Shown: positions 10,621-55,478 of the stretch, piece by piece
Layout: every line of letters begins with the position of its first letter
How positions within the stretch are numbered: the first letter of the stretch is position 1
From: Chloracidobacterium sp.
GTDB lineage: Bacteria > Acidobacteriota > Blastocatellia > Chloracidobacteriales > Chloracidobacteriaceae
Assembly: GCA_025057975.1 (NCBI GenBank)
Contig: JANWUV010000006.1
Span: 62,001-126,000 of the forward strand
Direction: 5' to 3'
Length of the DNA: 64,000 nt
Made by a program: the position numbers and the translations under genes
The notes under the pieces: model-generated
Told to the model about the DNA's origin: nothing
Seen by the model: the letters and a program-made list of their open reading frames with translations, nothing else
The model's database searches: none

Positions 10621-12324
10621 ATGACTTCGGCCGCTTCTTCTTCTTTTTCGCGTCGTAGTGTTGCGACGGCGTTCTTCACCGGCGGCGACCGGTTTGAAGA
10701 CACATCTGTACTGTATAGTGACACCTCGCAGGCGGCGGGCGTTCCCGACATACCGCCGCTTGAAGTGATCGCTGCTAATCGCATGGCTTTTGGTCCGCGC
10801 CCCGGCGACCTAGAGCGCATTCGGGCAATGGGCTTTGAAGCCTATGTCGAAGAGCAGCTTCATCCCAACGACGCTGACGACGCGCTGTTTCTGGCTAAGC
10901 GCCAGAGCGCACGGTTACGCATTAGCTATCCGGCCGGCGACGGCTACCCGGCGGTGGACGAGATGCGCCCGCTGACGGCGCTGGACAAGCCGCTCAGTGA
11001 ATTGTGGCCGCTTGGCGACACGAGCGTTTCACTACCGTTCGCTGAGCGCAATCGTCCGCTGGAAGAGGTGCGTGTCGAAACCGTGCTGCGGGCGATGTAC
11101 AGCAAGTGGCAGTTGCGGGAAGTTCTTGTGGGTTTTTGGCATGACCACTTCAATGTGGACGCCCGCTCCAACCCGCGTATTTATGCGACATGGCCGCTCT
11201 ACAACCGCTTGTTTCGGCGGCATGCCCTTGGAAACTTTCGTGTGATGCTCGAAGAAGTCACCAAGAGCATTGCCATGATGTACTACCTCAACCTCGTCAG
11301 CAGCCGGAACACGGCGCCCAACAAAAACTTCGCCCGTGAACTGCTCGAATTGCATACGCTCGGCGCCAACAACTACTTTCCAAACGCCGCCGATGCACCG
11401 GTGTTCCCCAGCGGACAGGTTTCAACCGGCTACACGGAAAATGATGTCAATCAAGTCGCAGCGGCGCTGACGGGTTGGACGATCGCCGCCGGGCAGCGCG
11501 TCGGTAGCACGACCCTACCCAACACCGGGCAGTTTGTCTTTGTGCCGCAGTGGAACGACCCGGCGGCGCGGACGGTGCTCAACGTCCCGTTGCCAGCAGC
11601 GACTTCCGCCGATCCGATGGTGCAGGGGCGCCGCATCTTGGACATTTTGGCGGCGAATCCGAGTACGGCGCGGTTTATTTGTACGAAGCTGTGTCGCCGG
11701 CTGGTGGCCGACAATCCGCCGCCGGAACTTGTCAAGCGCGCCGTCGTCGCGTGGCGGGAAAACCTGACGGCAAACGATCAGATTGCGCGCGTGGTGCGGG
11801 TCATTCTGCGGTCGCCGGAGTTTGCGCAGATTTGGGGGCAAAAGACCAAGCAGCCGTTTGAGCACACCATTTCGTTCCTGCGAGCGATAGACGCCAACTT
11901 GGCCGACAACGGCGGCGGCTATGTGCCGTACTCGCTGGTCGCCGAAGCTGGCCATGCGCTGTTTGCGTGGCCCGCGCCAAACGGTTTTCCCGACGTTAGC
12001 GGCTACTGGCTCAACACCAACACCTTCCGTGCCAGTTGGCGGAACATTACGGTGACGTTGACGAACGGTTACAGCGGCATCCAGCACAATCTGCGCGCGA
12101 GTTTGCCGTCGGGTGTGACAACGACGCGCCAGATTGTGGATTACTTCATCGCGCGCATTATGGGGCGTCCAGTACGCCCGGAGGTCTATACCGAGTTGAT
12201 TGAGTATTTGCGTGGAACAGCTTCCCCTGACGCGCCGCCGTCGGGGACGACCGCCGAAGTCACCAACCGCATCAACCTGATGGTCGCGCGCCTGTGCGTG
12301 TCGCCGGATTTCTGGTGGCGATAG
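10621..12324 (+). CDS. DUF1800 family protein
   Basis: The 567-residue protein matches the DUF1800 family, large proteins common in Acidobacteria and Planctomycetes and nearly always paired with a DUF1501 protein, as here. Recognisable parts are an early HLLNRMAFGP-like stretch (ANRMAFGPRPGDLERI), VETVLRAMYSKWQLREVLVGFWHDHFNV, NFARELLELHTLGA and DVNQVAAALTGWTI, plus a late KLCRRLVADNPP. The biochemical role is unknown. GGAG at 10606 supports the ATG at 10621 rather than the one at 10591. No clear signal peptide is seen at the N-terminus. Confidence 0.9.
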   Translation: MTSAASSSFSRRSVATAFFTGGDRFEDTSVLYSDTSQAAGVPDIPPLEVIAANRMAFGPRPGDLERIRAMGFEAYVEEQLHPNDADDALFLAKRQSARLRISYPAGDGYPAVDEMRPLTALDKPLSELWPLGDTSVSLPFAERNRPLEEVRVETVLRAMYSKWQLREVLVGFWHDHFNVDARSNPRIYATWPLYNRLFRRHALGNFRVMLEEVTKSIAMMYYLNLVSSRNTAPNKNFARELLELHTLGANNYFPNAADAPVFPSGQVSTGYTENDVNQVAAALTGWTIAAGQRVGSTTLPNTGQFVFVPQWNDPAARTVLNVPLPAATSADPMVQGRRILDILAANPSTARFICTKLCRRLVADNPPPELVKRAVVAWRENLTANDQIARVVRVILRSPEFAQIWGQKTKQPFEHTISFLRAIDANLADNGGGYVPYSLVAEAGHALFAWPAPNGFPDVSGYWLNTNTFRASWRNITVTLTNGYSGIQHNLRASLPSGVTTTRQIVDYFIARIMGRPVRPEVYTELIEYLRGTASPDAPPSGTTAEVTNRINLMVARLCVSPDFWWR

Positions 12325-12344
12325 GAGAAAGGAGCTATGGGCTT

Positions 12345-13634
12345 ATGCCACTAACAAGACGCCAATTTGTTGTTGGTTCAAGTCTGGCGGCCGCCTATGC
12401 CGCGACGGGGACAGCCCGCATTGGTGGGTTGGTGTATGGGCAAACCGCCGGGACGAATGAAATTCTAGTCGTGCTATACCTGCGGGGTGGGATTGACGGC
12501 TTGAACTTCGCCGCGCCGGTCAACGAGCCAAACTATGTCGCTTCACGGTCAACACTACGCCTGCGGGAGAGCGGTACCGACGCCGGCCTGCCGCTGGCGA
12601 ATCCCATCGGCAACGGCGTGGACTTTCGGCTCCATCCGAGCGCCCGGCCGCTGCTTGACCTGTATCAGGCTGGGGCGCTGGCGATTGTGCATGCGGTAGG
12701 GTTGACCGTCGCCAACCGGAGTCACTTTGACGCGCAAAGCTTGATGGAAGGCGGCGTGCCGACGGCGCGGCAGCAGACGGGGTGGTTGACCCGGCACATC
12801 ACGAGTTCGGGCGGACAGGGGGGCGTTTTACCTACCGTCGCCGCCTCCAGCAGCTTGCCCGGCGCGTTGATTGGCAGCGGCAGCGCCATCGCCATGCCGA
12901 ACCTTGCCAACTTCGCGCTGCCCGGCGACCCCACAATTTTCCCGGCGATGACGCGGATGTACACCGGCACAACACCGCTCCACATGGCGGGTTTCAACGC
13001 CATTCACGCCATCCAGTCGGTCAACAGCGCGATTGGGCGGCCGCCGACCGGCGGGACGCTGCCGGCCTACACGCCGGAAAACGGTGCAACGTACGCCCAG
13101 CCGGAAACGCAGACCGGCTCCTTGGGCGCAGCGCTTATCACCATCGCTCGGCTCATCAAGCTCGATGTCGGTTTGCGCGTTGCGACGTTGGATGTCGGCG
13201 GCTGGGATACGCACAACAATCAGGGGTTGACAACCGGGACTTACGCCAACAACGTGGATTCGCTCGCGCGCAACCTACTGGCGTTTTACAACGACATGGT
13301 TCGTTACCGGCAGCGCGTCACGCTTGTCGCTATGAGCGAGTTCGGGCGAACGCTGCGCGAAAACCAAAGCGGCGGTACTGACCACGGACGCGCTTCCATC
13401 ATGCTGGTGTTGGGCGGCAGTGTGAATGGTGGGCGGATGTTCGGTCGCTGGCCCGGCCTGTCCAGCAACGCGCTGGACGGCGGCGACTTGGCGGTGACGA
13501 CCGATTATCGGCAGGTCTTGGCGGAGATCTTGGTACGGCGCTTGAGGAACACACAACTCAGTACGGTGTTTCCCGGCCTTGGCGCATACCAGCCGCTGGG
13601 CATCGTACAGGGGAACGATCTGCCAACGACGTAA
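12345..13634 (+). CDS. DUF1501 family protein, Tat-exported
   Basis: The 429-residue protein starts with a Tat-type signal (MPLTRRQFVVGSSLAAAYAATG) and belongs to the DUF1501 family, which is distantly related to sulfatase/alkaline-phosphatase-fold proteins. The family segments LYLRGGIDGLNFAAP, HPSARPLLDLYQAGALAIVHAVG, DVGGWDTHNNQG and MSEFGRTLRENQSGGTDHGRA are all present; the Asp and His residues there suggest metal binding. The gene begins 20 bases after the DUF1800 stop with GGAG before it, so the two form an operon. Substrate unknown. Confidence 0.92.
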   Translation: MPLTRRQFVVGSSLAAAYAATGTARIGGLVYGQTAGTNEILVVLYLRGGIDGLNFAAPVNEPNYVASRSTLRLRESGTDAGLPLANPIGNGVDFRLHPSARPLLDLYQAGALAIVHAVGLTVANRSHFDAQSLMEGGVPTARQQTGWLTRHITSSGGQGGVLPTVAASSSLPGALIGSGSAIAMPNLANFALPGDPTIFPAMTRMYTGTTPLHMAGFNAIHAIQSVNSAIGRPPTGGTLPAYTPENGATYAQPETQTGSLGAALITIARLIKLDVGLRVATLDVGGWDTHNNQGLTTGTYANNVDSLARNLLAFYNDMVRYRQRVTLVAMSEFGRTLRENQSGGTDHGRASIMLVLGGSVNGGRMFGRWPGLSSNALDGGDLAVTTDYRQVLAEILVRRLRNTQLSTVFPGLGAYQPLGIVQGNDLPTT

Positions 13635-22212: not shown

Positions 22213-24921
22213 ATGGCGACGCAGGATTTCGTTCACTTGCATTTGCACTCCGACTACAGCTTGCTCGACGGCGCCATCCAGCACGGCGCGCTGGCGGAAC
22301 AAGCCCAACGGATGGGCTTCAAAGCGGTAGCCGTGACCGACCACGGCAATATGTTCGGCGCAATGGGCTTCGCCAACGCCATGAACAAGGTCGGCGTCAA
22401 ACCCATCATTGGCATGGAAGCCTACGTTGCACGCGGGTCGCGCCATGACCGAGGCAAAGCCGACGCGGACGGCGAACGTGGGACGAACCACCTCATCCTG
22501 CTAGCGACGGATGAAACGGGCTACAAGAATCTCGTCCGGCTGGCGTCGCTTGGCTACACCGAGGGGTACTACTACAACCCGCGTATTGACAAGGAAGTGC
22601 TGCACGCGCACCGCGAAGGCTTGGTGGCGCTCTCGGCTTGTATGTCCGGCGTTCCGGCGTCGCTCATCTTGCGCGACAAGCAGGATCGCGCTGAATGCGA
22701 GATCGGCGAGTACAACGAAATCTTTGGGCGTGGGCGCTATTTCCTTGAACTCCAGTGGCATCGCGGCCTTGAAGACGACCAAACCAAGGTCAACCGCGCA
22801 TTGACCGAGATTGCCGCTCGCTTGGACATCCCGCTGGTTGTCACCAATGACGCACACTTTCTCACGGCGGCCGACCACGAAGCCCATCGCGTCTTGTTGT
22901 GCCTGAAAACTGGCAAATCGCTGCGCGAAGCGAGCTTTCATTACTCGCCCGACCACTATGTCAAAAGCCCACAGGAGATGTGGGCCCTGTGGGGCAATGA
23001 AAACCCAGAGGCGCTGCGCAATACGGTGCGTATCGCTGAGATGTGTACGTTTGCGTTCGGTAAAGCTCCGAACTACTTGCCGGTGTTTCCCGTCCCGGAA
23101 GGCTTTACGTTGACCAGTTACTTTGAAAGCGTGACACGGCGTGGTCTGGAAGAACGGCTGCGCCGCATCCAACCGGCCGACCCGGCGAAGTATCAGGCGC
23201 GACTGGAGTACGAAATCAGCGTCATCGAACGCATGGGCTACGAGGGCTATTTTCTCATCGTCTGGGATTTCATCCGGCACGCCCGCGAACGCGGCATTCC
23301 GGTCGGCCCTGGACGAGGCAGCGCGGCTGGGTCGCTGGTCGCCTACGCTTTGCACATTACCGATGTTGACCCCATCGCCCACGATTTGCTCTTTGAGCGC
23401 TTCCTCAACCCGGAGCGCGTCTCGCTGCCCGACATTGACGTGGATTTCTGCATGCGTGGGCGTAGCGCGGTCATTGAGTACGTCAGTCAGTTTTACGGGC
23501 GCGAAAACGTTTCGCAGATTGCGACGTTCGGCACAATGGCTTCGCGGGCGGTCATTAAGGATGTCGGGCGCGTCTTGGAAATGCCCTACCCGGAGGTCGA
23601 GAAGATCGCCAGGCTCATTCCGCCGCCGCAGCGCGGGCGCAATGTCGCCATCGCCGACGCCCTCAAGATGGTCCCGGAACTGAAGGAAGCCTATGACCGG
23701 CGGCCGGAGGTCAAGCGATTGATTGATCTGGCGCGGCGCTTGGAAGGCGGCGCACGGCACTCCTCAATTCACGCCGCCGGAGTGGTGATTTCGCCGCGTC
23801 CCGTACACGAACTCGTGCCGGTCTTCAAAACCAAGACCCGCGACCGCGAACGTGGAGAAGTCGAAGTCACGGCGACGCAGTACAACATGAACGACCTCGA
23901 AAAGGCCGGCATGCTCAAGATGGACTTCCTTGGGCTGACGGCGCTGACCATCATCGAGGACTGTCTGGCCAGCATCGAGAAGGAGACCGGCGTGCGTCCC
24001 GACCTGACGACGATTCCAACCGACGACCCAGCGGCCCTCAAAATGTTCAGCGACGGCGCGACGGACGCCGTGTTTCAGTTTGAAGGCGACGGCATCAGTG
24101 AGATCGCCCGCCGGCTCAAACCGAGCAGCTTAGACGACATCGTCGCACTCAACGCGCTGTACCGGCCCGGGCCGCTAGATTCAGGCATGGTGGACGACTA
24201 CATCGAGCGGCGACACGGACGGCGGCGTGTGACGTACGATTTCAAGGAACTGCAAGACGTTTTGGAGAGCACCTACGGCGTGCCGGTGTTCCAAGAACAG
24301 ATCATGGCGATTTTTCAGCGTCTGGCCGGCTATTCGCTTGGCGAAGCCGACCTTGTGCGCCGCGCCATGGGCAAGAAAAAGCGCGAGGAACTCGACGCCC
24401 ACAAGGCGAAGTTCATTGCCCAAGCCGTCGAGCGCGGGCATGACCGCGCCAAACTTGAAAAACTCTGGCAACAGCTTGAAGGTTTCGCCGACTACGCCTT
24501 CAACAAGTGCGTCACGGGCGACGCGACGGTACGCGACGCCCTAACGGGCGAGTTGCTGACGGTGGCGGCCTTGGCCGAGCGCGATGTGGAGCGCGTCGGT
24601 GAGCCGTTCAAGACCTACAGTTGGGACGGCCGCGCCGTGGTCGTCAACGAGTTGGTGGAGGCGTTTCCGACTGGCGAAAAGGAAGTCGTCGAAGTCGAAC
24701 TGGAGGACGGGCGGACGTTGCGCTGCACGCTTGACCACAGGTTCTATACCCGGTTGCCCGATGGGAGCGACGCCTTCGTGCCCTTGCGGGACATTCTCGA
24801 ACACGGCTTGGCGCTCTATGCCTGCGATGAACTGGCGACCGACCGGGAAGCGAGCGAGACGGCCGTCATCCATGCGGCGGAGGCTGTAGAAGCGTCGCTA
24901 GCGCCAGAAGTTCCTCGGTGA
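22213..24921 (+). CDS. dnaE: DNA polymerase III alpha subunit, N-terminal part fused to an N-intein (split dnaE)
   Basis: The 902-residue product begins with the PHP domain (HLHLHSDYSLLDGAIQ, VTDHGNMFGA) and runs through the C-family polymerase palm, with catalytic aspartates in PDIDVDFC (D407, D409) and family segments GPGRGSAAGSLVAYAL and FGTMASRAVIKDVGRV. It stops being polymerase after FADYAFNK at residue 765; bacterial alpha subunits are about 1,150 residues. From Cys766 it is an intein N-part, and then a stop. The fingers, beta-binding and tau-binding regions are absent, so a second gene elsewhere must supply the rest and join it by trans-splicing. It is the replicative polymerase of the chromosome. 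Confidence 0.93.
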   Translation: MATQDFVHLHLHSDYSLLDGAIQHGALAEQAQRMGFKAVAVTDHGNMFGAMGFANAMNKVGVKPIIGMEAYVARGSRHDRGKADADGERGTNHLILLATDETGYKNLVRLASLGYTEGYYYNPRIDKEVLHAHREGLVALSACMSGVPASLILRDKQDRAECEIGEYNEIFGRGRYFLELQWHRGLEDDQTKVNRALTEIAARLDIPLVVTNDAHFLTAADHEAHRVLLCLKTGKSLREASFHYSPDHYVKSPQEMWALWGNENPEALRNTVRIAEMCTFAFGKAPNYLPVFPVPEGFTLTSYFESVTRRGLEERLRRIQPADPAKYQARLEYEISVIERMGYEGYFLIVWDFIRHARERGIPVGPGRGSAAGSLVAYALHITDVDPIAHDLLFERFLNPERVSLPDIDVDFCMRGRSAVIEYVSQFYGRENVSQIATFGTMASRAVIKDVGRVLEMPYPEVEKIARLIPPPQRGRNVAIADALKMVPELKEAYDRRPEVKRLIDLARRLEGGARHSSIHAAGVVISPRPVHELVPVFKTKTRDRERGEVEVTATQYNMNDLEKAGMLKMDFLGLTALTIIEDCLASIEKETGVRPDLTTIPTDDPAALKMFSDGATDAVFQFEGDGISEIARRLKPSSLDDIVALNALYRPGPLDSGMVDDYIERRHGRRRVTYDFKELQDVLESTYGVPVFQEQIMAIFQRLAGYSLGEADLVRRAMGKKKREELDAHKAKFIAQAVERGHDRAKLEKLWQQLEGFADYAFNKCVTGDATVRDALTGELLTVAALAERDVERVGEPFKTYSWDGRAVVVNELVEAFPTGEKEVVEVELEDGRTLRCTLDHRFYTRLPDGSDAFVPLRDILEHGLALYACDELATDREASETAVIHAAEAVEASLAPEVPR
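24508..24918 (+). other. N-terminal split intein (Int-N) of DnaE
   Basis: Residues 766-902 of the dnaE product. Block A starts CVTGDATVRDALTGELLTV with the nucleophilic Cys1. Block B is LEDGRTLRCTLDHRFYT with the TxxH motif (TLDH), and is followed by VPLRDILEHGLALYACDE, comparable to the DEIF-type segment at the end of cyanobacterial Int-N. The last 30 residues are Glu/Asp/Ala-rich, as in Int-N tails that pair with basic Int-C. No homing endonuclease is present. The C-extein should begin with the Ser of the SHS motif. Confidence 0.9.
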
Positions 24922-54695: not shown

Positions 54696-55478
54696 ATGAC
54701 GCACACGCCGGCGGCTTCGACAGCTGAACGTCGGATGACGTTTGAAGAGTACCTGCGTTATGACGACGGAACGGATATGCGCTACGAGTTGGTGCGCGGG
54801 CTTTTGGTACCGATGGCGAATCCGCCTGCGGAACACGAGTTGGTGGTGAGCTATGCGGCTGGAGTGTTGTTGCGGCATGTGGCGCGACATGGGCTGCCGT
54901 ATGTAGTGCGAGTTAACGCCGGGGTGCAGACGGAGGTGGACACATCGCGGTTGCCGGATATTGCGGTGTACGACGCGGTAGTTTGGGAGTGGTTGTTGCG
55001 GGAGGGCGGGGCGGCGGTGCTGCGGCTTGGAGAGCCAATGCGGTTGGTGGTGGAGGTGACGAGCGAGAACTGGCGAGAGGACTACGACGAGAAGCGCGCC
55101 GAGTATGAGTGGTGCGGGATACCGGAGTACTGGGTGATAGATCGGCGGCGGCAGATGAGGGCATTGGCGTTTGGGCAGGATGGGAAGTATGTCGAAGAGG
55201 TGTTGCGGCCTGGGGGAACGTTGCGCTCGCGGGTGTTGGAAGGGTTTGTGACGCCGGTGGAAAGCCTATTGTCGCCGCCGTCACCGGAGGAGGTGGTGCA
55301 GGAGGAGTTGGCGCGCTTGGCGCAGGCGCAGGAGGAAGCGTTGGAGGCGCGGCGGTTGTTGGAAGTGGAACGACAGCGTGCGAACGCTGAGCGGCGGCGC
55401 GCGGAGGCGGCGGAAGCGCAGGCGCGTCGGTTGGCGGAGCGGCTGCGCGCGCTTGGGCTGGAGACGGATGACCTGTAG
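54696..55478 (+). CDS. Uma2-family nuclease with C-terminal coiled coil
   Basis: The 260-residue protein has the DUF820/Uma2 PD-(D/E)XK-type fold: MTFEEYLRY, ELVRGLLVPM, RLPDIAVYD, then VVEVTSENWREDYDEKRAEYEWCGIPEYWVID with the likely catalytic residues, and a coiled-coil tail rich in Arg/Glu/Ala (about residues 200-250). Such genes are numerous and mobile in cyanobacteria and Acidobacteria. The coding strand is strikingly G-rich compared with neighbours, a sign of transfer or a different mutational history. GGAAGGGG precedes the ATG. Confidence 0.88.
   Translation: MTHTPAASTAERRMTFEEYLRYDDGTDMRYELVRGLLVPMANPPAEHELVVSYAAGVLLRHVARHGLPYVVRVNAGVQTEVDTSRLPDIAVYDAVVWEWLLREGGAAVLRLGEPMRLVVEVTSENWREDYDEKRAEYEWCGIPEYWVIDRRRQMRALAFGQDGKYVEEVLRPGGTLRSRVLEGFVTPVESLLSPPSPEEVVQEELARLAQAQEEALEARRLLEVERQRANAERRRAEAAEAQARRLAERLRALGLETDDL

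Follow-up and report, generated by a model that had tools for sequence, protein, structure and literature searches.

The stretch of DNA analysed here (the window) comprises 64,000 nucleotides of a Chloracidobacterium sp. genome (assembly GCA_025057975.1, contig JANWUV010000006.1, positions 62,001 to 126,000), and the element in question is a dnaE gene that breaks off mid-protein, just after the finger domain, and continues into the N-terminal fragment of an intein (Int-N). The reading frame at 22213-24921, on the plus strand, holds both parts. The N half of dnaE, or N-extein (22213..24507), encodes the PHP, NTPase and finger domains of DNA polymerase III alpha (PF02811, PF07733, PF17657), covers profile positions 1-750 of 1022 of TIGR00594 and ends in ...FADYAFNK. 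Directly after it, the 137 residues of Int-N run from Cys1, at 24508, to the stop codon at 24919-24921, the junction being FADYAFNK↓CVTGD (arrows mark splice junctions). An Int-N core of 108 residues, from Cys1 to ...ALYACDE (24508..24831, plus strand), was delimited by the profile TIGR01445 (intein_Nterm, E 5.9e-11 in a profile search) and by alignment with 11 relatives; its block B is TLDH and its net charge -12. The remaining 29 residues with the stop codon (24832..24921, plus strand) form a tail of net charge -4, defined by charge count and comparison with congeners. Among solved structures, DnaE inteins gave the best sequence scores with this Int-N (E 7e-6 at best). The N-intein that a sequence-only reading of the window had placed at 24508-24921 is thus confirmed by the profile match and by the sequence matches to solved structures. 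A promoter and terminator scan behind Int-N was uninformative: 2 sites resembling terminators were obtained versus 0.7 expected, and each of them is on the minus strand.

The search of the same genome with TIGR00594 yielded two matches exactly: the N half in the window and a match to positions 749-1022 on a different contig, C1. The C-half domain HHH_6 occurs once in the genome, in the C-half open reading frame (ORF) on C1, and PF07733 also occurs once, so that no spare DnaE was found there. The C-half ORF (438 amino acids, G000:C1:356980-358296; L003 1384-2700) starts with MSLRELKIVRVTPVGAAPTYNLTMRAPHHNYFVNGVLTAN↓SHSVCYG, that is, with a 40-residue C-terminal intein fragment (Int-C) followed by the C half of dnaE. 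The last residue of Int-C is Asn40, the next one is Ser+1, and the predicted spliced junction reads FADYAFNK↓SHSVCYG. There are thus two precursor genes, one with Int-N and one with Int-C, which is the arrangement of a split intein. Inteins are recognised by Cys, Ser or Thr at position 1, a TxxH motif in block B, a C-terminal Asn and a nucleophile at +1, and all four are present here as C1, T74-H77, N40 and S+1. C1, T74 and H77 were invariant across the 12 aligned Int-N rows, as were N40 and S+1 across the 11 aligned Int-C rows. The sequence-only reading had supposed a basic Int-C partner and a Ser at +1; both were found, Int-C having 1 acidic and 4 basic residues (net +3 over 40 residues).

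The dispersed arrangement is common to the genus. In all seven of its genomes, TIGR00594 detected exactly one N half and one C half, with Int-N and Int-C, respectively. Three of them (G001, G005 and G006) consist of two contigs each and hold both halves on contig C1, 0.7-1.4 Mb apart, so the dispersal is not an assembly break. In the six congeners other than the window's genome, the C half comes after pdxS (SOR_SNZ) and adjoins it; dispersal was therefore probably one event in the ancestor of these six. When codons were compared (six of the seven genomes, without G005, which is close to G001), the second positions of the Int-N core and Int-C of five congeners were 82-98% identical to those of the window's genome, and the third positions 47-75%. 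Second positions so much more alike than third ones indicate purifying selection on the Int-N core and on Int-C.

Concerning the distribution of the intein, an Int-N profile recognised 15 of 162 genomes of the class Blastocatellia at E < 1e-40 (families f1, f3 and f4), with 3.7e-9 for the best match beyond these; within Acidobacteriota, a phylum sample of 396 genomes gave 8 matches at 1e-12, all of them already-known members of the class. The site FN(K/R)↓C...AN↓SHS is common to the 15 carriers, and its occupation differs. In G025 and G033 (f3) and in G140, G143 and G144 (f4), the two halves flank an ORF of 268-270 codons of the LAGLIDADG_3 endonuclease family (PF14528), in which both LAGLIDADG motifs could be seen by eye. 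At each of these five loci, the endonuclease ATG lies inside the 3' end of the Int-N frame, and the last codons and stop of Int-N lie within the endonuclease coding sequence (overlap of 38 bases in G025, 44 in G033, and 23 in G143, G144 and G140), while the endonuclease TGA overlaps the ATG of Int-C. In G014, there is a stop after Int-N, Int-C comes shortly after, and a 22-codon remnant followed by a stop, MPRTAWNKRLTPEIEERITRYL, is read in the endonuclease frame; it joins the endonuclease start (MPRTAWNKRLTPEIE) to the last residues of the enzyme (RYL) and keeps the overlap with Int-N. In G007, a Uma2 gene (PF05685; L051:2227-3270) occupies the space between the halves; here a different nuclease gene may have taken the place of the endonuclease. 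Uma2 genes are numerous in these genomes, with 15 matches in G007. In G009, the frame is contiguous (1702 amino acids) and contains a mini-intein at this site as well as another intein farther upstream. Finally, seven genomes, all of the window's genus, have the halves dispersed. As to these and G007, no endonuclease remnant was seen by eye; a search for this endonuclease family gave no match at 1e-8 in any of the seven dispersed genomes, the window's included, and inspection of the window's Int-N tail by eye revealed nothing convincing as a remnant.

The linker DNA of the G009 mini-intein was compared in register with the start of the endonuclease. It agreed at 15 of 24 bases with both G014 and G025 (shuffle p about 0.0005 and about 0.001, respectively) and at 12-13 of 24 with the other four; over 30 bases, 16 agreed in register with G014, while one other register tried reached 14. 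This is suggestive, not proof, of G009 being a re-fusion to a contiguous intein.

With respect to the endonuclease, its data fit the insertion of a free-standing or intron-type gene rather than the domain of an ordinary intein. PHROG 4645, labelled 'endonuclease', matches the ORFs of all five loci, and a phage collection gave 135 related records, all below 60% identity (best 35%), of which 88 cover at least 80% of the query; the 12 listed of these 135 are 26-35% identical. One relative, in Alicyclobacillus phage MMB025, sits between two annotated DNA polymerase pieces, and another, in Staphylococcus phage StAP1, is annotated as intron-encoded. Both phage genes have the two motifs and are similar over most of the gene found between the halves, but in these two records no adjacent intein is annotated. 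No relatives were found among solved structures at E 0.1, and none was confirmed in viral contigs. Within the class, the family was detected at 1e-8 in 6 of 162 genomes, namely the five carriers and, weakly, G077, whose distant relative lies in a 486-amino-acid ORF (L114). Other candidates were rejected. A group I intron in place of a split intein gave no Rfam match at the gathering threshold in seven sources, including three of the five endonuclease loci, and the overlapping frames leave no room for it. As for a viral origin of the intein itself, the Int-N profile hit 12 loci in a viral scan, each of them either short or of 37-60% identity, and the phage collection gave 3 records at 35-38% identity.

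The reading that we prefer, and to which we assign a probability of about 0.8, is that the dnaE of this genome exists in a single copy and is naturally split, that the product of its N half, in the window, would be trans-spliced with that of the dispersed C half, and that the split originated in the insertion of an endonuclease gene. A split intein most likely joins the two DnaE halves as proteins. The two precursors would be made separately and associate with the help of an acidic second (N2) lobe in Int-N and of the basic Int-C; in the splicing in trans, Cys1 and Ser+1 would act as nucleophiles and Asn40 of Int-C would cyclise, giving an uninterrupted DNA polymerase III alpha. As to the origin, comparison of the relatives suggests that an intein in dnaE received, at the position where inteins usually carry their endonuclease, a LAGLIDADG gene of phage or intron type that overlapped with it and was translated separately. 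By this insertion the intein would have been split into two proteins, with the three genes remaining side by side. The three-gene unit may then have moved laterally between families. Later, the endonuclease would have been lost (G014) or replaced by the Uma2 gene (G007), and in the window's genus the two halves would have been carried apart.

Of the alternatives, the one that survives best, although clearly the less probable, is that the split arose by breakage of a mini-intein already devoid of endonuclease, a route described in a review (PMC7765530), and that the endonuclease gene moved in afterwards. It agrees with the contiguous mini-intein at the same site in G009, and with the fact that both the dispersed genus and its relative G007 are split without a visible endonuclease remnant. 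However, Int-N ends, stop codon included, inside the endonuclease coding sequence at five of five loci, and the G014 remnant keeps this overlap. In addition, the resemblance in register of the G009 linker to the endonuclease start, weaker in the 30-base check, points to a re-fusion.

The lateral step of the endonuclease-insertion scenario was considered by comparing the intein with its extein (the last 75 residues of the N-extein plus the C-extein; identity table of 11 of the 15 carriers). Between G033 and G143, G144 and G140, the intein is 75, 74 and 72% identical, respectively, and the extein 45, 44 and 45%. In a tree of exteins (15 carriers and 23 of 27 other relatives, leaving out the fragmentary G008, G013 and G032 and the matchless G030), the f4 carriers cluster with further genomes of f4, whereas G033 clusters with f3 genomes that lack the intein; in the intein tree, f4 groups with G033 (support 91/93). 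The two trees thus disagree in the sense that matches the identity excess. Of the 13 pairs compared within f1 and f3, most showed no higher conservation of the intein than of the extein (for example G007-G009, 67 versus 77%; G014-G025, 78 versus 78%), exceptions with an intein excess being G000-G003 (+8) and G014-G033 (+4). This suggests that lateral movement of the intein-endonuclease unit between families is the better reading, though not a demonstrated one.

Several observations weigh against the preferred reading or parts of it. The penultimate residue of Int-C is Ala, not His, in 15 of 15 carriers; a penultimate His is not required, however, since cyanobacterial DnaE inteins have Ser or Ala at that position and retain splicing, according to a review (PMC5874633). 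No clear Shine-Dalgarno sequence was seen by eye ahead of the Int-C start in the window's genome. Splicing is a prediction from sequence, the order of events is reconstructed from present-day relatives, and the survey covered Acidobacteriota. The contiguous G009 could be the ancestral state instead of a re-fusion. The endonuclease may once have been in frame; the Acidobacteriota survey revealed no contiguous intein that carries it so. Concerning lateral movement, only 3 of 12 inner branches of the intein tree were well supported, that of f4 with G033 (91/93) not being among them, and the f4 exteins are on long branches. Moreover, the intein is more conserved than the extein within f4 too (G140-G143, 88 versus 67%; G140-G144, 89 versus 65%), with an intein excess of +20/+24 points for G140 versus G143/G144, so fast-evolving f4 exteins may account for part of the excess.

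Another question is the role of charge, as the sequence-only reading had proposed an Asp/Glu-rich Int-N tail and an electrostatic pairing with Int-C. Pairing as such is in agreement with the composition of the fragments: Int-N of the window has 29 Asp/Glu versus 13 Lys/Arg (net -16), opposite to the positive Int-C. Charges were tabulated for 12 of the 15 carriers, 8 of which were also scored for the tail; G140, G143 and G144 were covered in a second table. Int-C was basic in 12 of 12 carriers of the first table, and in 15 of 15 carriers its last 38 residues had a net charge of +2 to +5, while that of the N2 lobe was -4 to -9. An acidic N2 lobe together with a basic Int-C, the charge pattern of electrostatic capture-and-collapse, was therefore found in every carrier. 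Opposite charges of Int-N and Int-C are a published pattern and, for Npu DnaE, the acidic part is in the N2 lobe (PMC11923092).

The tail is a different matter. It contains 6 Asp/Glu, 2 Lys/Arg and 1 His, and its net charge of -4 is borne out, but its acidity is modest at most: 46 of 737 segments of 29 residues in the DnaE part of the same protein equal or exceed it in acidity. In the seven genomes of the genus, the tail has net charges of -4, -1, -4, -1, -2, 0 and +2, and its identity to the window's tail is 23-38% in five congeners (16-26 of 29 residues alignable), whereas the Int-N core reaches 71-89% and Int-C 80-88%. These identities and charges rule out the tail as a conserved acidic arm. 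First plus second codon positions of the tail are 44-61% identical and third positions 25-48% in the five congeners, a weak contrast of a kind that protein-guided alignment would itself produce. The conserved acidity sits in the Int-N core, in the N2 lobe, not in the tail.

It is thus improbable that selection for rapid association of the split halves made the acidic tail a specialised arm for electrostatic docking. The tail charge of -4 in the window and also in G002, together with the basic Int-C of all scored carriers, speaks for it; its variability in charge, its low identity with little codon-position contrast and the equally acidic extein segments speak against it, as does the fact that the charge asymmetry is carried by the N2 lobe and occurs also in a contiguous intein. 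The Int-N-like and Int-C-like parts of G009, with the boundary set by the analyst, have charges of -15/+6, and the four locally split relatives have -13 to -16 and +3 to +5, respectively. Because the contiguous G009 is equally asymmetric, the charge pattern is not tied to being split and does not look, as judged from these sequences, like an adaptation to splitting. The data favour asymmetry as a pre-existing property that makes splitting tolerable, rather than as its result.

A two-piece polymerase working without splicing, with the intein fragments as inactive leftovers, would be compatible with splicing being a prediction here, but is still less probable: every catalytic residue is invariant, purifying selection acts on both fragments within the genus, and the break falls in the middle of DnaE. 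That the separated halves are an artefact of assembly or sequencing can practically be dismissed in spite of the window's genome being a draft of 86 contigs and of several relatives being fragmented, as all seven genomes of the genus, including three that are assembled into two contigs, have the same arrangement, and the same overlapping of genes occurs at five loci from two other families.

Some other observations were made. A second intein is located upstream in the DnaE of G007, G009 and G033 (L051, L052 and L055), at about TIGR00594 position 676 (in G033, after ...NTLGI and before CVYQEQ); the polymerases of these three genomes would therefore need two splicing events. Gene order around dnaE, compared between the genus and the other families, revealed apart from dnaE one weak match only, to the ORF at window positions 12231-13631 (27-35% identical, in L054 and L094). 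The stretch at 54741-55259 of the window is one of 15 Uma2-family stretches in its genome. The chlorosome family PF02043 is present in seven of seven genomes of the genus, which is most likely Chloracidobacterium, with a presumed hot-spring habitat; a CsmA-like gene of this family is also present in G008 (same family, other genus; 5.1 Mb genome), hinting at a second phototrophic genus, and the dnaE of G008 is too fragmented to show whether it is split.

When compared with known systems, the window intein is like the split DnaE inteins of cyanobacteria (Ssp, Npu) in its host gene and in that DnaE inteins are its best sequence matches among solved structures. The cyanobacterial inteins are likewise split at the usual endonuclease position, with a short Int-C, an acidic Int-N and a basic Int-C, a penultimate residue other than His and distant halves. 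It differs in its weak similarity to them (E 7e-6 at best), in its host, a member of Acidobacteriota, and in having relatives with an endonuclease gene between the halves. Cyanobacterial DnaE has Cys at +1, while the window intein has Ser. Furthermore, the Ssp DnaE intein is inserted before CFNK (PMC2664965), whereas the window intein comes after FNK (FNK↓S), four residues downstream. Since it lies after FNK and not before CFNK, it occupies a different insertion site, and it is not the cyanobacterial allele, which is defined by insertion before CFNK and Cys+1.

In 2009, Dassa et al. reportedly described genes fractured by split inteins together with a free-standing homing endonuclease of a new, EDxHD/Vsr-like family. 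Five relatives here likewise have split-intein halves flanking a free-standing endonuclease gene, an arrangement absent from the window's genome and present at the same site in 5 of 15 carriers. Compared with that report, the enzyme here is LAGLIDADG_3 (PF14528, five of five), the hosts are bacterial chromosomes, and loss and dispersal would have followed in relatives. The DnaE of Desulfonema ishimotonii is also non-cyanobacterial and intein-bearing, with dnaE in two adjacent ORFs, but the authors of that paper exclude division by a split intein, and the intein lies within one ORF (PMC6390638).

The origin of split inteins is given tentatively in two reviews (PMC5874633, PMC7765530). In another paper, a Chloracidobacterium thermophilum protein is tabulated in a section on intein transfer, and DnaE does not appear in that paper (PMC4071816); inteins in this species thus seem to be already in print. 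Among the literature matches listed, the titles and abstract starts announced no split DnaE in Acidobacteriota, and no series linking fractured and dispersed split-intein states was found.

The tail is not the point of interest of this locus; the history of the site is. Whether this one site keeps the whole life history of a split intein, with fracture by an endonuclease gene, lateral spread, loss or replacement, re-fusion and scattering of the halves, is a proposal that we hold and doubt in about equal measure. The site offers living states for a direct comparison of splicing: contiguous, with the endonuclease, with a deletion remnant, with another gene, and dispersed. It also provides a split intein pair distinct, by its site and its Ser+1, from the widely used cyanobacterial DnaE ones, and it tests whether charge asymmetry results from splitting or precedes it and makes it tolerable. 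If the proposed life history is true, fractured genes can be, independently of cyanobacteria, a source of genome-dispersed split inteins besides the breakage of mini-inteins.

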